Positions 40,806 to 47,592 of a stretch of DNA of 64,000 nt are shown here, piece after piece (the stretch's first letter is position 1; each line of letters opens with the position of its first letter). The notes under the pieces are model-generated. The model had not been told where the DNA came from. It did not search any database and saw only the letters and a program-made list of their open reading frames with translations. The stretch spans positions 372,001 to 436,000 of the forward strand of contig JAMLHW010000001.1 of NCBI GenBank assembly GCA_023954475.1. Reading direction: 5' to 3'. The position numbers and the translations under genes are program-made. This stretch comes from Anaerolineae bacterium (lineage in GTDB: Bacteria > Chloroflexota > Anaerolineae > Promineifilales > Promineifilaceae).

Positions 40806-41798
40806 TCAGGTAACAGAAGTAGCGGCAATCGTTTCGGCCGAGATTGAGATACCGTTGCGGGCCAGCATATCAGAGAGGCGTTCGGCGTAATAAGTATTCA
40901 ACTGGGTCAGGTGATGCGGTTCAGCCAGAGGCAGCGCATGCAGACGCGTCAAAATAGTCTGATTGCGCACAATGATGTTGTATAGCGCGTAACTGACAGC
41001 CCCGGAGCGTACCAAAATCTGTTGTGCAGCATCCAGACACGCCGGGTCATTGATGCAGGTGCGCAACTGCCTGAACTGGGCGCGCTCCGCGTGGTCTGCT
41101 GTGGAAGCGTACATAATCAGCAGATTATTGCGTTCCTCGTTCCAGTCGCTGTTGGCTGGCGTTTTGAGCGCATCGGTTAGATCATCTTCGATTTGGATCA
41201 ACTCGCCCAGAATCACGCCGATTTCATAAAGCGTTGCCGCCAATTTCACATCCGCCCCACCCAATAATGCGCCTGTTTCGTAAGCGCAACCGTAGAAGGG
41301 TGTGCTTTTCGTTGCGGTAACACGCCAGTAATTGTCTTCGCCGGTGAGGTTTTGTACGTCGAGATGTTGTCCGTAAGCTGTGCGCAAGTTCATCTGCGCT
41401 ATGCTCTGCATGATGGATGCCTTGCGTTCAGCGGGAATCTCGGCTTTGTCTATGACGCGTAATGCCAGAGCAAGCAGCGCCAATGCGGCATTTGATGCTA
41501 CTCCGGCACCAGCCTGAGCATGGTAGCCGTCGGGTTCGTTGTCGAGCATGTCGTCGACGACGATGATCGACATTTGGCTAGCGGCGATGGCTATGCAACC
41601 GGGGATAGCTTGTTCGGCCGATCCTCCCACAGCCAGACAAGCCCGCAGCGGCAACCGCCAATCGTGATCGGTCATGGCAAACGCGGTATTGAGCCGGTCG
41701 GCAATGTCGGGCCACTCAGTTATTTCGGGGATGTCTGCAATATAGGCACGGAGCAATTCGGCCGATAGCATCGGAAATACCAAAAGGGCGTGCAACAT
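40806..41798 (-). CDS. ComQ-like isoprenyl synthase/transferase 1
   Basis: All-alpha prenyl synthase fold. ATG 41798 gives 330 residues; GTG 41810 in frame is possible. First Asp-rich motif VVDDMLDNE near residue 82, second QIEDDLTDAL near 203, so both metal sites are kept. The protein lacks the longer chain-length regions of typical farnesyl/geranylgeranyl synthases and matches the short, divergent ComQ class (polyprenyl_synt family) that prenylates the Trp of ComX. It lies 113 bp downstream of the small peptide gene on the same strand. A pure isoprenoid-making role (carotenoid or quinone chain) remains possible. Three TCGGCCGA copies. Confidence 0.72.
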   Translation of the reverse strand: MLHALLVFPMLSAELLRAYIADIPEITEWPDIADRLNTAFAMTDHDWRLPLRACLAVGGSAEQAIPGCIAIAASQMSIIVVDDMLDNEPDGYHAQAGAGVASNAALALLALALRVIDKAEIPAERKASIMQSIAQMNLRTAYGQHLDVQNLTGEDNYWRVTATKSTPFYGCAYETGALLGGADVKLAATLYEIGVILGELIQIEDDLTDALKTPANSDWNEERNNLLIMYASTADHAERAQFRQLRTCINDPACLDAAQQILVRSGAVSYALYNIIVRNQTILTRLHALPLAEPHHLTQLNTYYAERLSDMLARNGISISAETIAATSVT

Positions 41799-41911
41799 TC
41801 TGTTACACACCCGCTACTGTTTAGAAAGTTTTATGTTTTAGATCAAATACAATCTATCGAATCGGTGACTGGATCAAGCATTTGCCCCCAATTCATCAAA
41901 ATACGAGGCGG

Positions 41912-42091
41912 TTATGTCCAACCTACCCAGGTGCCACCAAGCGGCATTGGATTTTTGGCATCAACGCTGTAATCCACGTCGAACTTATCACGGTTTAACA
42001 GTTGACGTAATTCAGCTATGATAGACTCGCCATTGTTCGAATCATTCATTTCTGCGTTGAAATCTTCAACCTTAATCAAATCTTTTTTCAT
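41912..42091 (-). CDS. ComX-like 59-residue precursor peptide (candidate)
   Basis: Short gene, 59 codons plus TAA. ATG at 42091 follows AGGGGG at six bases, one of the best ribosome-binding sites in the window. The peptide starts MKKDLIKVEDF, has an amphipathic stretch SIIAELRQLLNRDKF, and ends NPMPLGGTWVGWT. Two tryptophans in the last five residues, just after a Gly-Gly, are what a Trp-prenylated signal such as ComX needs (mature TWVGWT if cut after GG). It precedes a ComQ-like gene and diverges from a ComP-like kinase. No sequence similarity to Bacillus ComX outside this layout was seen. Alternative: leader of another prenylated RiPP. Confidence 0.7.
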   Translation of the reverse strand: MKKDLIKVEDFNAEMNDSNNGESIIAELRQLLNRDKFDVDYSVDAKNPMPLGGTWVGWT

Positions 42092-42171
42092 TTTGTACCC
42101 CCTGCATTACTATGCAATGTCAATCAATACAGTTCTTTCAGCGAATAGATGAAAACCACCGGAAAGTGATT

Positions 42172-42216
42172 CTTTCCTATAATAATGATGCTAGTCTATA
42201 AGATTACTTATGTCAA
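42172..42216 (-). promoter_or_regulatory. Promoter of peptide-comQ operon with nearby inverted repeat
   Basis: Minus strand TTGACA (42211-42216), 17 bp, TAGCAT (42188-42193); start expected near 42181. Just inside the transcript, GGAAAG (42161-42166) and CTTTCC (42172-42177) form an inverted repeat that could be an operator or a hairpin in the 90-nt leader. Confidence 0.6.
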
Positions 42217-42511
42217 GAAACTGTGGACAAAAACATCGAAAAGAACGGCTCATATATGGTACTGTTTACATGATTGATACACGCAACGCAGTTGGAATGA
42301 GGAGTTGTCTTTGAAAATCCTCCCAATAGTTGCATGGCCTATTCACTTTTGGAATCCGTCAGCAGAAAAGTATTGTGAATAATCTTCGGTATGAGTGAAT
42401 GAGCGTGACAACTGGTTCAAAAAGTGCGATGCTTATAAGGACTTCAATTGAATTGATTGGTGACCACAATGGCCGGGGTTTTCACTATAGAACTTACGCG
42501 GATTGGCGATC
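42217..42511 (+). other. Kinase upstream region with two tiny candidate frames
   Basis: No firm gene. A 23-codon frame (TTG 42311 to 42382) has GAGGAG six bases upstream and encodes a Trp-containing peptide (VAWPIHFWNP). A 38-codon frame (ATG 42399 to 42515) overlaps the kinase ATG as ATGA and ends YADWRS, reminiscent of the comX-comP junction, but has a poor ribosome-binding site. Both may be chance. Confidence 0.3.
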
Positions 42512-44635
42512 ATGAGAAAACGTGTACTTAATACCATCTACAGGATTTGGTTTCAATTAACTGATCCGGCCGAATCGATCAAACAACTGGATGAACGGCG
42601 TCAGGCGCAGTTTATTTCGTCGCTTCTGGTCGGTTTGGTTTTGATCGGTGCCATCTCTGCTGCGGCTCTGGTCTTCAGTGAGGATGTGAACGCCAGTCTG
42701 ATATCCGGTACACTGACCGCCTTTGGATTGATGGTCATACTTTACATTCTGAGTCGCACGCGTTTCTATCGCTTTGCGGCTGGTTTGACTGCTTTCATCT
42801 TCATCATTTTGATTATTTCAACTGCCTATAACGCAGCGACGACAACTATTGTGCCATTTGATGTCGATGTATTGGTGTATATGATCGTGCCCATTCTATT
42901 GGCAAGCACGTTGGCATCTGTGCGCGCGACGATTATTCTGACAGTTTTTTGCTTGATCTTGCTTGTTTCGATGGCCATATGGCTACCGCTTTCAGTTGTG
43001 GAAATACTCATTGGCCCCGTGACGTTTTTGTTGGTGATCGCAACACTGCTGACATTCATGGCACGCCAACGAGATTTGTTGGAAGAAGACCGGCGGTTGG
43101 AATTGGCAGAAAGTGAAGCGCACTATCGGACATTGCTAGAGGCAACTTATGAAGGCGTGGCGATTGTGCAGAATGACAGTATCGCCGAAAGCAATCCGAA
43201 CTTTGCAGCGCTGTTTGATTTTACCCTTCATGAGGTTATCGGAACGCCGTTACATCGCTACTTGTTTTATCGGCCGAATCCGGGAATCGATTCGACTGAA
43301 AGTCTGCCGTTGGATGTGGTGCGCGAGGGTATCGGTGTTAAACGTGATGGCAGTCATATTGACGTTGAATTTATTGCCAGTGAGCAACAATATCAACGAG
43401 ATGCTGCCCTGGTTGTGGCTGTGCGCGATATTACCGAACGCAAGCGCACGGAACAGGCATTGCAGCAGGCACAACGGTTGGATAGTATCGGGTTACTCGC
43501 CGGCGGTATCGCACATGATTTCAATAATCTGTTGACAGGTGTCATAGCTCAATCGTCTATGGCGATATCCACGTTAGAGCCGAACGATCCGGCACGAGGC
43601 TATGTTGAGAAATCATTATTATCGGCCGAACAGGCGGCCCAATTAACACGACAACTACTGGCATATGCCGGTAAAGGCGTTACGTCAAACGAAGTATTCG
43701 ACATCAACCGTTTGATTACCAGCAATTTGGCTATTCTGAAGACGTCGGTGCCGGCACATGTTGAACTGTTGCTCAGGTTGTCCAATGAGCCAATTGCGGT
43801 TGAGGCGGATCGCCATCAGATTCAACAAGTGCTGTTCAATCTTGTGCTGAATGCTGGTCAGGCGATTCCATCGGGGCGAGGTTTTATACATATCACAACA
43901 GACAGGGTTGAATGGCACCAGGTGCAATACGCTCAAACCTTCATTGGTTATCAGCAACTTATTCCCGGGCCACACGTCCTCATCAGCGTCAAGGACAATG
44001 GTGTCGGTATGGATGCGGCAGTTCGCACCCGGATATTTGAACCATTTTTTTCGACAAAATCGCAACGTGACGGGATTGAGGGGCATGGACTGGGATTATC
44101 CACATCGCTGGGCATTGTGATATCGCATCACGGCGCTATTGCAGTAAACAGTGCACCAAACGACGGTACGGAATTTATCGTCTTGTTGCCGGCTGCGCCG
44201 TTGACTGCGCCCTTGCCGGAAGTTAGCGATGATAGACCGCAAAATGTCGCCTTTGATTTTAAGGGTCTTACAGCTTTAGTTGTGGATGATGAAGAAACCG
44301 TGCGCGATGCGATTGAAGATATTTTGCGTTTGAGTGCGTTTTCGGTGCTGACAGCGGTGAATGGTTTAGAAGGCGTCGAACAATTCGTCGCACACGTCAG
44401 CGAAATCGATTTGGTAATTCTGGACATCAAGATGCCGGGTATGGACGGGATGGAAGTGCTTAAAACAATTCGAGAAATGGCTCCGGATGTGCGCGTGATT
44501 ATTACATCCGGATACAGTGAAGAGGAGAAAATGGCGCGTTTTCTGGCCGATGATCGTATTTATTATTTGGCCAAACCATTTGACATCGATGGCTTGATGG
44601 TAGCCGTCAACGCTATTCTTGGCGTGGTTTCATAG
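42512..44635 (+). CDS. Membrane hybrid histidine kinase (ComP-like role suggested)
   Basis: 707 residues from ATG 42512. Six membrane helices at about 35-205, a PAS domain (SEAHYRTLLEATYEGVAIVQN) near 205-325, HisKA with phospho-His in GGIAHDFNNLLTGVI near 335, HATPase (NLVLNAGQAI, VKDNGVGMD, GHGLGLS) to about 565, then a C-terminal receiver with Asp in LVILDIKMPGMDG near 636 and TSGYS/Lys in LAKPFD. The membrane sensor with no large outer domain is like ComP in using helices to sense a hydrophobic peptide. The receiver has no DNA-binding output, so a further regulator elsewhere is implied. Convergent overlap of 6 bp with the next gene. Confidence 0.9.
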   Translation: MRKRVLNTIYRIWFQLTDPAESIKQLDERRQAQFISSLLVGLVLIGAISAAALVFSEDVNASLISGTLTAFGLMVILYILSRTRFYRFAAGLTAFIFIILIISTAYNAATTTIVPFDVDVLVYMIVPILLASTLASVRATIILTVFCLILLVSMAIWLPLSVVEILIGPVTFLLVIATLLTFMARQRDLLEEDRRLELAESEAHYRTLLEATYEGVAIVQNDSIAESNPNFAALFDFTLHEVIGTPLHRYLFYRPNPGIDSTESLPLDVVREGIGVKRDGSHIDVEFIASEQQYQRDAALVVAVRDITERKRTEQALQQAQRLDSIGLLAGGIAHDFNNLLTGVIAQSSMAISTLEPNDPARGYVEKSLLSAEQAAQLTRQLLAYAGKGVTSNEVFDINRLITSNLAILKTSVPAHVELLLRLSNEPIAVEADRHQIQQVLFNLVLNAGQAIPSGRGFIHITTDRVEWHQVQYAQTFIGYQQLIPGPHVLISVKDNGVGMDAAVRTRIFEPFFSTKSQRDGIEGHGLGLSTSLGIVISHHGAIAVNSAPNDGTEFIVLLPAAPLTAPLPEVSDDRPQNVAFDFKGLTALVVDDEETVRDAIEDILRLSAFSVLTAVNGLEGVEQFVAHVSEIDLVILDIKMPGMDGMEVLKTIREMAPDVRVIITSGYSEEEKMARFLADDRIYYLAKPFDIDGLMVAVNAILGVVS

Positions 44636-45508
44636 CTGCACCAGTCTCGCTCTGACCGCCGCCACTTTTGACTTATCCACTTCGGCCGATAAATAGATCA
44701 GTCCCGGCAGCGCATTTGTCAGATAGTCGCGCCAATAGTGCGCAATCTCTGTACTGTCGGCAACAGGTGAACTTTGCCATAAATCGTCAAAACGCAGGAC
44801 TGAGTCGAGCCACAGATTGCACGCATAATCCAGAGCGCCCGTGCGCCGCACTGCTTCCCAATCGACTTCTGACTCTTGAGCGAACGCGTATTGGATGACC
44901 AGATTTTGCTTGCTCTCCCAGTCAGCTTCCTCAAACAAATCCTGTAAATCGTCGTGAATAATCGAAATATGGCTAAACGCTTCGCCTAACTTATTCAACT
45001 CAGCCATTAGATCATTTCGGCCGACCACGACTGCGCCCATCATAAACGGGAACGCGTAATATGGTCGGATACGCGCCTGGGCCTCAGCCCAATAAGCTGC
45101 GCCTTCGACAGACACGCCTTGTAGTTGTTGGGCTTGCGAGCGCACTGCTTCCGCCAGAAATTCAGTTGTCAATCGCATCAGCTCCGGATTAAACGCCACG
45201 AGAGTCAACGCAGCGGCGGCAGCAACCGCCGCGCCTACCGCGTATGCTCTTGTGTCATCGGGAGTGAGGTCGTCGTCGACGAGATCGTCCAGCACCAACA
45301 CTGATAATTCGGCAGCCGCAAAACTTGCAGCGGTTGCAAGAACCTGGGCCTGATCGGCGTGCGAGTCGAGGGCGTGTGCAATGAATGCAATCCAGACGTA
45401 TTCGGGTACGGCACGCCGATCCAGCAATCGGTCGAGTAGGTCACGTTCGGCGTCGGTTGTGCAGGCTGATAGAATTTTCGGCCGAATGTCGGCCAATGAC
45501 AGACGCAT
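44630..45508 (-). CDS. ComQ-like isoprenyl synthase/transferase 2
   Basis: 292 residues from ATG 45508 (GGTGA upstream); TTG 45517 possible. First Asp-rich motif VLDDLVDDD near 73, second SIIHDDLQDLFEE near 183. Same fold class as the enzyme at 40806 but only weakly similar. It starts 5 bp after the stop of the Fe-S oxidoreductase gene and overlaps the kinase tail on the other strand by 6 bp. It may form a heteromer with synthase 1, supply the prenyl donor, or act on a second peptide that I could not find. Confidence 0.7.
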   Translation of the reverse strand: MRLSLADIRPKILSACTTDAERDLLDRLLDRRAVPEYVWIAFIAHALDSHADQAQVLATAASFAAAELSVLVLDDLVDDDLTPDDTRAYAVGAAVAAAAALTLVAFNPELMRLTTEFLAEAVRSQAQQLQGVSVEGAAYWAEAQARIRPYYAFPFMMGAVVVGRNDLMAELNKLGEAFSHISIIHDDLQDLFEEADWESKQNLVIQYAFAQESEVDWEAVRRTGALDYACNLWLDSVLRFDDLWQSSPVADSTEIAHYWRDYLTNALPGLIYLSAEVDKSKVAAVRARLVQL

Positions 45509-45513
45509 TGCGA

Positions 45514-47592
45514 TCAATCACCTGCCAGAGGTAACTCGGACAGTTCGCGTTTTTCCAATCTTTCCGCTACTAATTGCGCTACATCCTTGACTTGAACCAC
45601 ATTGCCGCGTTCGCTGTTAGCGTCACGCATCATCACCGCACAGAATGGGCAGCCAACCGCCAGCGTTTCGGCGCCGGTGCGCACCGCTTCATCAAAGCGA
45701 TTCACGCTCACCGCTTCACTGCCGTGTTCCTCTTCCTTCCACATCTGTGCGCCACCAGCACCACAACAGAATGAGTCGCGTTTGTTGCGATCCATCTCCA
45801 GCAATGTCAAGCCTGCTTGCGCCAACGCCTCACGCGGATCGTCATAAATACTATTGTGACGACCCAAATAACACGGATCGTGGAATGTCACATGCTGCAA
45901 CTGATTATCCAAATCCATCGTGAGCTTGCCCCGTCCAATCAAGTCGGAGATCATCTGCGTGTGGTGGAAAACGGTGAAATCGCCGCCCAACGCCTTGTAC
46001 TCTGTGCCGATTGCTGTCAGGCAATGTGGACAACTCGTCACCACTTTGCGTTCATTGACCTTGTACGCGTTCATCGTCTCGATGTTAGCTGAAGCCATTT
46101 CGAAGAAAAGGTATTCGTTGCCTGCGCGACGTGCTGAATCACCGGTACACGTTTCCTGGTCGCCCAAGACGGCAAAACTGATGCCTGCTTCGTGCAAAAT
46201 CGTTGCCACCGACTGCGCCACTTTTTGCGCATCGGGATCAAAAGCGCCGGCGCAGCCAACCCAGAAAAGATATTCAAAATCGGGATTTTCATCGACGGTC
46301 GGTACGGCAAAGTGCAGCGGTCGTGCCCATTCCATGCGGCTATCAGTCGCCCCCCATGGATTACCGCGCCGCTCCATGCCCTGGAACGCCGTTGCCAGTT
46401 CATGCGGATAACTGTCATCCATCAACACTTTGCTGCGCCTGATGTCGAGAATGTCCATCATCGGCTCGTTACCGACCGGGCATACTGCGCTGCACGCACC
46501 GCAACTGGTGCAGGCCCACAGCGCACTTTCGCTCAGTGCGTAGTCAAGCATGGGGATGCCGAGAACTTCCGTGTCGCCGTCAGCGAGCGCGGCGAAATTG
46601 TGCTTGATGTGATAGCGTTTGTTAATCTCAATGGCTGCCGGAGATAATTCTTTGCCGGTGTTGTATGCTGGACATGCTTCTTGACACCGGTTGCACATGA
46701 TGCAGGCGAAGGCGTCCAGAATTTGTGTCTGGCTCAGGTCATTCAAGCTGACGACGCCAAATTTTTCATTGGTTTCGTCGTCAAAATTGAGCGGATTCAT
46801 TGCGCCTAACGCACCCCGATTCGGCCGAGTCATGAAATTGAGCGGCCCAATGAAGAGGTGGGCGTGTTTGGTGTACGGGAAGTAAGGCAGGAAAAGCAAA
46901 ATCGAACCGAGTGCCAGCCACCAGAATACATGCCACATCGTCGTCAATGTTTCTGTGCTCAGGCCGGAAAAAACCGAAGCCAAACCTGTAGCAAACGGCT
47001 GCCACGTATCGGGTTCTGTGAGTGCAACGGCTGTGGCTGCGCCGAGATAGCGGCTGCCGATGTGGACGATGATAAAGATGCCGACAATGAGCGAATCGCG
47101 GGCGATGCCGCCATTGCGCGCTCTTGCATCAAACAGGACATTGTCACGAACGGTCAGGACGCGGTCTTTGGCGAGGAAGCGGCGCACGAGAAAGTAAACC
47201 ATGCCGACGAGTACGGAGATCGTCAGGAGATCCGCCAGAAGACGATATAAATTGCCCCACCAATAGTTGTACTCAGCACTCCAATAATGATAGTCAGACG
47301 GCAAATACCCTTCGAGTACGTCGACGCCGTTAACGATCACGTAGAAGATGAAGCCGAAGGCAATGCCGTAGTGGAAGAGGGAGGAAAATGTGCGGTTGCG
47401 TAAAATGTGGCCTTGCGAAAACAGTGCAGCGATGCCGGCCCAAATACGGCGTGGTAACTGGTTCCATAACATGCGATCGGGTCCTTGACCACGAGCGACA
47501 ATTCGATACATTCGGCCGAATCCACGTATCGCCAGCGCAATCATCGCGACCGCAAATATCGGAAACAGAAGCATTTCAATCGTCGTTAGCAT
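45514..47592 (-). CDS. FadF-like membrane Fe-S oxidoreductase
   Basis: Likely passes electrons from ETF/acyl-CoA oxidation to quinone. 692 residues. N-terminal nitrate-reductase-gamma-like membrane domain (about five helices to residue 260), two [4Fe-4S] motifs (CIMCNRCQEACPAYN near 303, CTSCGACSAVCPVGN near 362), then two CCG domains (TSCPHCLTAIGTEY; HDPCYLGRHNSIYDDPRE; SFCCGAGGAQMW) as in heterodisulfide-reductase subunits. Length and order match Bacillus FadF. No etfAB or acyl-CoA dehydrogenase here. Upstream gap to 47828 is 236 bp and contains one GGCGGAAGG unit at 47728. Confidence 0.88.
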   Translation of the reverse strand: MLTTIEMLLFPIFAVAMIALAIRGFGRMYRIVARGQGPDRMLWNQLPRRIWAGIAALFSQGHILRNRTFSSLFHYGIAFGFIFYVIVNGVDVLEGYLPSDYHYWSAEYNYWWGNLYRLLADLLTISVLVGMVYFLVRRFLAKDRVLTVRDNVLFDARARNGGIARDSLIVGIFIIVHIGSRYLGAATAVALTEPDTWQPFATGLASVFSGLSTETLTTMWHVFWWLALGSILLFLPYFPYTKHAHLFIGPLNFMTRPNRGALGAMNPLNFDDETNEKFGVVSLNDLSQTQILDAFACIMCNRCQEACPAYNTGKELSPAAIEINKRYHIKHNFAALADGDTEVLGIPMLDYALSESALWACTSCGACSAVCPVGNEPMMDILDIRRSKVLMDDSYPHELATAFQGMERRGNPWGATDSRMEWARPLHFAVPTVDENPDFEYLFWVGCAGAFDPDAQKVAQSVATILHEAGISFAVLGDQETCTGDSARRAGNEYLFFEMASANIETMNAYKVNERKVVTSCPHCLTAIGTEYKALGGDFTVFHHTQMISDLIGRGKLTMDLDNQLQHVTFHDPCYLGRHNSIYDDPREALAQAGLTLLEMDRNKRDSFCCGAGGAQMWKEEEHGSEAVSVNRFDEAVRTGAETLAVGCPFCAVMMRDANSERGNVVQVKDVAQLVAERLEKRELSELPLAGD

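Follow-up and report, generated by a model that had tools for sequence, protein, structure and literature searches.

A putative tryptophan-prenylated peptide pheromone locus of the ComQXPA type in Chloroflexota

We analyzed a 64,000-nucleotide stretch of an Anaerolineae bacterium genome (assembly GCA_023954475.1, contig JAMLHW010000001.1, positions 372,001 to 436,000; hereafter the window), which holds a short peptide gene, X, followed on the minus strand by Q, a gene for an enzyme of the prenyl-diphosphate synthase family. An earlier note had proposed a ComQ-ComX-ComP-like signaling locus here, completed by a divergent histidine kinase (HK) and a second ComQ-like gene, Q2. All four genes lie where the note had placed them, and the features are as follows.

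40806 to 41810, minus strand: Q, enzyme of trans-prenyltransferase fold (group A, see below), predicted Trp prenyltransferase of X, from PF00348, motifs, tree, and an AlphaFold2 (AF2) model.
41786 to 41812, minus strand: hairpin resembling a terminator, lying between X and the likely start of the synthase, from sequence.
41912 to 42091, minus strand: X, 59-aa precursor peptide with leader MKKDLIKVEDFNAEM... and C-terminal core ..GGTWVGWT (W-V-G-W), from its open reading frame (ORF) and conservation.
42098 to 42103, minus strand: ribosome-binding-site-like AGGGGG, 6 nt 5' of the X ATG, from sequence.
42188 to 42216, minus strand: promoter-like site TTGACA-17-TAGCAT 5' of X, at chance level.
42503 to 44635, plus strand: hybrid histidine kinase with six transmembrane (TM) helices, a fused receiver, and a CckA-like transmitter (domains PAS, HisKA, HATPase, receiver).
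44630 to 45517, minus strand: Q2, a divergent group-A paralogue matching PF00348 at only 18 bits (cut-off 27).

The 59-codon X gene runs ...NPMPLGGTWVGWT and has its Trp residues fifth and second from the C terminus. The earlier note had credited it with a strong ribosome site and a promoter. The ORF ending in GGTWVGWT is there, and the ribosome site is a reasonable one (AGGGGG, which does not match the textbook AGGAGG), but the promoter did not hold up, as two promoter-like sites were found against 2.2 expected from shuffled sequence. The hairpin at 41812–41786 could possibly act as an attenuator for the synthase gene. Window X did not match the Pfam ComX family (PF05952) at E ≤ 10, and a PF05952 search of the genomes of this family was also empty but uninformative, since the control genomes gave no match either. 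A W-x-x-W pattern within the last 22 residues occurred in 1.2% of 903 random ORFs of 40 to 90 aa from these loci.

The earlier note had set, as a check, a search of related genomes for Trp-ended peptides beside such synthases, and this search found the peptide conserved next to the enzyme. Querying 59 related genomes with the window synthase returned orthologues at 40 to 46% identity, and the short ORFs 5' of them were each Trp-ended (e.g., GSWSGWPS, SPAWTGWW, GSWSGWAM, VWGWNWDW, and YLTWSVWG). A 14-row profile scanned against 84,980 species genomes gave 58 loci, labeled almost throughout as Chloroflexota (Anaerolineae, Caldilineaceae, Ardenticatenaceae, and Litorilinea), plus two Acidobacteria metagenome-assembled genomes and one Kordia. 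About 50 independent loci carry the X–synthase pair, which bears out the idea that a ComQ-like synthase and a conserved precursor with terminal Trp occur together outside Bacillota; their X peptides are 45 to 70 aa long, with a common leader and two C-terminal Trp residues, mostly W-x-x-W. We refer to these synthases, including window Q, as group A. Such a synthase is present in 13 of the family's 52 genomes and in 6 of 400 drawn across the phylum; the viral contigs searched contained no relatives. The Kordia (Bacteroidota) record, L179, holds a group-A-like enzyme and a 47-aa precursor adjoining TPR-AraC type regulators, and is likely a case of horizontal transfer.

To choose upstream ORFs blindly, we used a rule based on ATG and Shine-Dalgarno sequence only, ignoring Trp content, and applied it to the 50 group-A loci with enough upstream DNA and, as a control, to 20 ordinary prenyl-diphosphate synthases from the same phylum. 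The rule picked an ORF in 44 of the 50 group-A loci, and 43 of these 44 had at least two Trp residues in the last 20; beside the ordinary synthases it picked an ORF in 2 of 20 and a two-Trp ORF in none (43/50 versus 0/20, Fisher p ∼5e-12). The rule skips window X, with its AGGGGG site, as well as the precursors of L133, L112, and Kordia L179 (..IGWAPWAE), which were identified by eye. In L043 the precursor (..LGAWSGWSA) sits on a separate contig; a 26-aa ORF upstream of the L042 synthase (..NPFVW) was too weak a candidate and was left uncounted. The 49 group-A precursors that we aligned share a leader with M-Q-x-F-Y or T-I-E-x-F; 42 have W-x-x-W and five more an alternating W-x-W. The Gly-Gly that the earlier note had remarked on before the Trp segment is absent in most of these 49 and is not supported as a leader motif or peptidase site. 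Among close pairs of group-A X genes, nonsynonymous change (pN) was lower than synonymous change (pS), at 0.195 versus 0.573 when pooled. Because this ratio is ∼0.34, the homologous X genes are, on sequence evidence, under purifying selection.

Q matches PF00348 at 64.8 bits and carries the Asp-rich motifs DDMLD and DDLTD; its start codon is probably Met14 (41771), because this residue aligns with the Met starts of relatives. D86, D87, and D90 of the first motif are invariant in 44 of 44 rows of alignment A4, and the motif is found in all ComQ. Farnesyl diphosphate synthases bind isopentenyl diphosphate (IPP) through GKxxRP residues and an Arg pair. Among 19 ordinary synthases, GKxxRP was intact in 18 to 19 and the Arg pair following the first Asp motif in 18. 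Both parts of this IPP site are lost in group A (window Q included), in ComQ, and in a second set of related synthases described below (group B), while the KT/KS lysine is kept in nearly all of these sequences and the first Asp motif is kept too. The earlier note had described a ComQ-like synthase with both Asp-rich motifs. Both are present, but the second is a point of difference: it reads D-D-x-x-D in 53 of 53 group-A synthases, including that of the window, whereas its first position is N or G in ComQ. Bacillus ComQ has a pseudo second motif, N/G-D-xxx, and its geranylation of Trp drops drastically when the first position of this motif is Asp (PMC5331326).

In a phylogenetic tree, which was built in quick mode and has long branches, the ordinary synthases split from ComQ, group A, and group B by a branch with 98% SH-aLRT; the ComQ references here and in the profiles were database loci L189 to L191. 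Q thus stands apart from the ordinary synthases, and the grouping with quinone or carotenoid chain enzymes that the earlier note had named as grounds for rejection was not seen. Profile comparison still related group A, group B, and ComQ to the ordinary synthases; the evidence for separating them is thus the tree together with the lost residues. The AF2 model of Q (pLDDT 92.6) has a trans-isoprenyl-diphosphate-synthase (trans-IDS) fold, with a top Z of 30.2 to 6kd7. The same fold is shared with Ord1, a farnesyltransferase of free Trp (PDB 9v4g–9v4j, Z 25.8–25.9), where Q206/D209 of Q align with Q216/D219 (numbering according to the PDB titles, which name mutants Q216A and D219A), that is, with the Gln and the first Asp of the second motif. 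A Gln upstream of an Asp-first second motif is found in Q as in Ord1, but the ordinary synthases keep it too and it does not discriminate. Ord1 also differs in taking free tryptophan as substrate and in lacking a peptide gene. We predict that Q is ComQ-like in mode of action, but because X precedes Q and the second Asp motif is intact, it is not a ComQ in the strict sense.

Kinase genes recur beside the pair. Of the 53 group-A loci, 44 have a kinase of one cluster no more than 5.5 kb away, as do all 13 group-B loci; regulators of a LuxR-type cluster accompany 27 group-A and all 13 group-B loci (their domains were sampled, with two members checked). The cluster kinases begin with TM1 and a PDZ-like loop, continue with mostly 7 to 9 TM helices and often a GAF domain, and end in HK domains. 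Their sensors aligned to that of ComP from Anoxybacillus with hhalign probabilities of 96% (group A) and 94% (group B), compared with 0.1% for a ComEC control, and by this comparison the cluster-kinase sensors are homologous to ComP. In a genome of the same order, a single 1067-aa ORF (L051:9178–12381) fuses a ComQ-like synthase to a ComP-like kinase (PDZ, TM, GAF, HisKA_3, and HATPase).

In group B, which comprises 13 loci, X, Q, and kinase stand in a row with a regulator nearby. One of them, L050, lies on another contig (C24) of the genome studied here and has the order regulator, 67-aa X ending in TDLWTPPGPV, synthase, and ComP-type kinase. The group-B X leaders (e.g., MNTLHEVVYQIVSNPVLLAEIV..) aligned to ComX (MQQIIRFLVEHPEVIKKLQ..) with an hhalign E of 2e-4, a better match than any of 200 column shuffles gave, and the top Pfam match of the L048 precursor ORF was ComX, at 13.7 bits and below the cut-off. 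From their sequences, these loci look like genuine relatives of comQXPA from outside Firmicutes, in which X comes ahead of Q. When the group-B alignment (A2) was run against 300 genomes of the phylum, its matches were swamped by ordinary synthases.

To our knowledge, Trp-prenylated pheromones are known from Bacillus relatives only. A 2014 census of 9,590 genomes found comQXPA-like loci in Firmicutes only (PMC4008528), a KEGG survey reports only a kinase–regulator pair from Chloroflexi (PMC8895600), and our literature search, with subscription papers and preprints outside its reach, found no description of an X–Q pair in Chloroflexota. The loci resemble ComQXPA (PMC4008528) in that a precursor with C-terminal Trp adjoins an IDS-fold enzyme without an IPP site, in the ComP-homologous kinases and LuxR-type regulators of the relatives, and in the X-Q-P operons of group B with their adjacent regulators and ComX-like leader. 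They differ in the Chloroflexota host, the intact DDxxD second motif, and the gene order (X-Q in the window and its relatives versus Q-X in the reference loci); group A also has paired Trp residues and an unrelated leader, and in the window the kinase is a hybrid with six TM helices whose sensor is unrelated. PalQ/PalX of Paenibacillus alvei, as published (PMC10853753), is likewise a trans-IDS-like Trp prenyltransferase acting on a C-terminal Trp of a ribosomally synthesized and post-translationally modified peptide (RiPP), but it has an NHLP-type leader, a ComP kinase is not described for it, and PalQ needs Trp at the extreme C terminus, whereas Trp stands 1 to 16 residues from the end here. 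ChrPC, as cited in PMC13290415, is a trans-IDS-like enzyme that modifies an internal Trp, but is a prenyltransferase-cyclase fusion where Q has a single domain.

Taken together, we consider it probable that the X–Q pair as a whole is a Trp-prenylated RiPP pheromone system built on the ComQXPA plan. That X is the substrate of Q we hold to be very likely, and that the product serves as a signal is a likely extension of this. As for prenylation, processing, secretion, and signaling, we infer the following course. X and Q would form a ribosomal-peptide pair in which Q, having a trans-IDS fold minus the IPP site, would take geranyl or farnesyl (or longer) diphosphate and prenylate one or both Trp residues of the W-x-x-W core at the C terminus of X. 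After removal of the leader, the lipidated Trp peptide would leave the cell as a cell–cell signal. In most relatives the adjacent ComP-type kinase would be the receptor and would hand phosphate to a response regulator, often of LuxR type; in the window, this kinase would have been replaced by, or lost to, the 6-TM hybrid kinase with its unrelated sensor.

Several observations weigh against a pheromone system of this kind. The intact DDxxD motif of Q does not fit the requirement of ComQ for N/G-D (PMC5331326), no resemblance to ComX could be detected in the X leaders of group A, and in two group-B loci, L120 and L121, the sole good upstream ORF is 84 to 85 aa long and without Trp; either a different residue is modified there, or the true precursor was missed. 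The window kinase sensor scored below 1% hhalign probability against ComP and the cognate kinases of other loci, no separate LuxR/NarL-type regulator (ComA) or other DNA-binding regulator lies beside the window pair, and the surroundings of the loci hold no conserved gene for a dedicated exporter or protease. One could suppose that the product is a Trp-prenylated RiPP of another use, such as an antimicrobial, surface-active, or membrane-anchored lipopeptide, and that the kinases only regulate its production. PalQ/PalX and ChrPC offer precedents for trans-IDS-like enzymes making non-pheromone RiPPs (PMC10853753, PMC13290415), the window kinase is not ComP-like, and each core has two Trp residues, unlike ComX. 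We nevertheless regard a non-signal product as unlikely, given the repeated occurrence of ComP-homologous sensor kinases next to the pair, the existence of a Q–kinase fusion, and the lack of any conserved gene for immunity or transport nearby. Less credible still is a reading of Q as a conventional enzyme making short-chain prenyl diphosphates or terpenes, with X either a small regulatory subunit or a protein unrelated to it. Q does have the fold and Pfam family of prenyl-diphosphate synthases and keeps both DDxxD motifs, but the IPP-binding Lys/Arg and Arg pair are lost, the phylogeny sets Q apart, the invariant part of X is its C-terminal Trp, and the genome has two normal prenyl-diphosphate synthases elsewhere.

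Within a pheromone system, the receptor for window X and the role of Q2 admit different readings. As the earlier note had described, a divergent membrane histidine kinase with six hydrophobic helices and a fused receiver is present at 42503–44635; it has no PDZ loop. The fused receiver and the absence of a ComA are both true of the window but peculiar to this locus: in most relatives a ComP-like kinase stands by itself, and in many a LuxR-type regulator is present. The claim that this kinase is the ComP counterpart did not survive. Kinases with its type of sensor, varying widely in size, turned up in 23 of the family's 52 genomes, among them some where the family-wide search had detected no synthase of group A, and we conclude from these comparisons that the sensor is generic for the family and unrelated to that of ComP. 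Since the ComP-type kinase appears to have been replaced by or lost to the 6-TM kinase here, window X may be read either by the latter or by the ComP-type kinase encoded in the X-Q-P locus of contig C24. A dedicated receptor in which six TM helices have taken the place of the ComP-type sensor and the receiver domain has absorbed the ComA step would suit the position of the window kinase, divergent beside X like the ComP-type kinase in many group-A loci; its dissimilarity to the cognate sensors, the spread of related sensors, and the ComP-type kinase on contig C24 make this doubtful. Q2, the second ComQ-like gene of the earlier note, is indeed present, but a functional two-synthase design is not borne out. 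It matched group A only and fell within the group-A clade on a long branch, its conserved Lys is changed to Arg and the Gln preceding the second Asp motif to Ile, none of 58 relatives has an orthologue, and no precursor of its own was found. The gene overlaps an upstream Fe-S oxidoreductase gene by 4 nt and is convergent with the window kinase. By its sequence, Q2 is a degenerate paralogue unique to this genome. An intact frame, both Asp-rich motifs, and a foldable IDS scaffold in the predicted structure persist, and heteromeric trans-IDS enzymes are known, which would fit a role as partner of Q in a heteromer or as a factor setting its substrate specificity; with the gene confined to one genome, altered at both residues, and on a long branch, we consider such a role rather unlikely.

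More tentatively, the loci may represent a new class of signal in Chloroflexota, with occasional transfer (e.g., to Kordia), in which IDS-derived enzymes prenylate both Trp residues of W-x-x-W in ribosomal peptides, or prenylate and join them, and ComP-homologous kinases read the product. Communication of the ComQXPA type would then be wider, and possibly older, than Firmicutes, and would include multichannel genomes such as this one with its two X–Q pairs. If true, this would provide a candidate peptide language for a mostly uncultured phylum, ∼50 enzyme–substrate pairs for peptide lipidation, and an evolutionary link from prenyl-diphosphate synthases to ComQ in which the second Asp motif is not yet lost.

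Three further observations were made along the way. In L142, L144, L147, L148, L150, L168, and L184, a convergent gene of one cluster follows X-Q-kinase; in L144 it is the competence DNA channel gene comEC (PF03772, 180 bits), and several of these loci also have a mutS-like gene upstream. The comEC-type neighbor could reflect a link to competence or mere synteny. ComQ-like frames (31% identity) without ComQ annotation were found on plasmids labeled Stenotrophomonas rhizophila (CP065518.1:70679–71482 and CP031730.1), which may be mislabeled Bacillales plasmids. Finally, the 8-bp palindrome TCGGCCGA occurs at 102 sites in the window (e.g., 1048, 40834, and 43622) against 1.6 to 3.6 expected, and in 7,668 copies in the whole genome, compared with 125 for the reversed control. 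Among relatives it numbers 9,414 in G031, ∼1,900 in G073 to G075, and a few hundred or fewer in most, and in this respect it appears to behave like the cyanobacterial HIP1 repeat.

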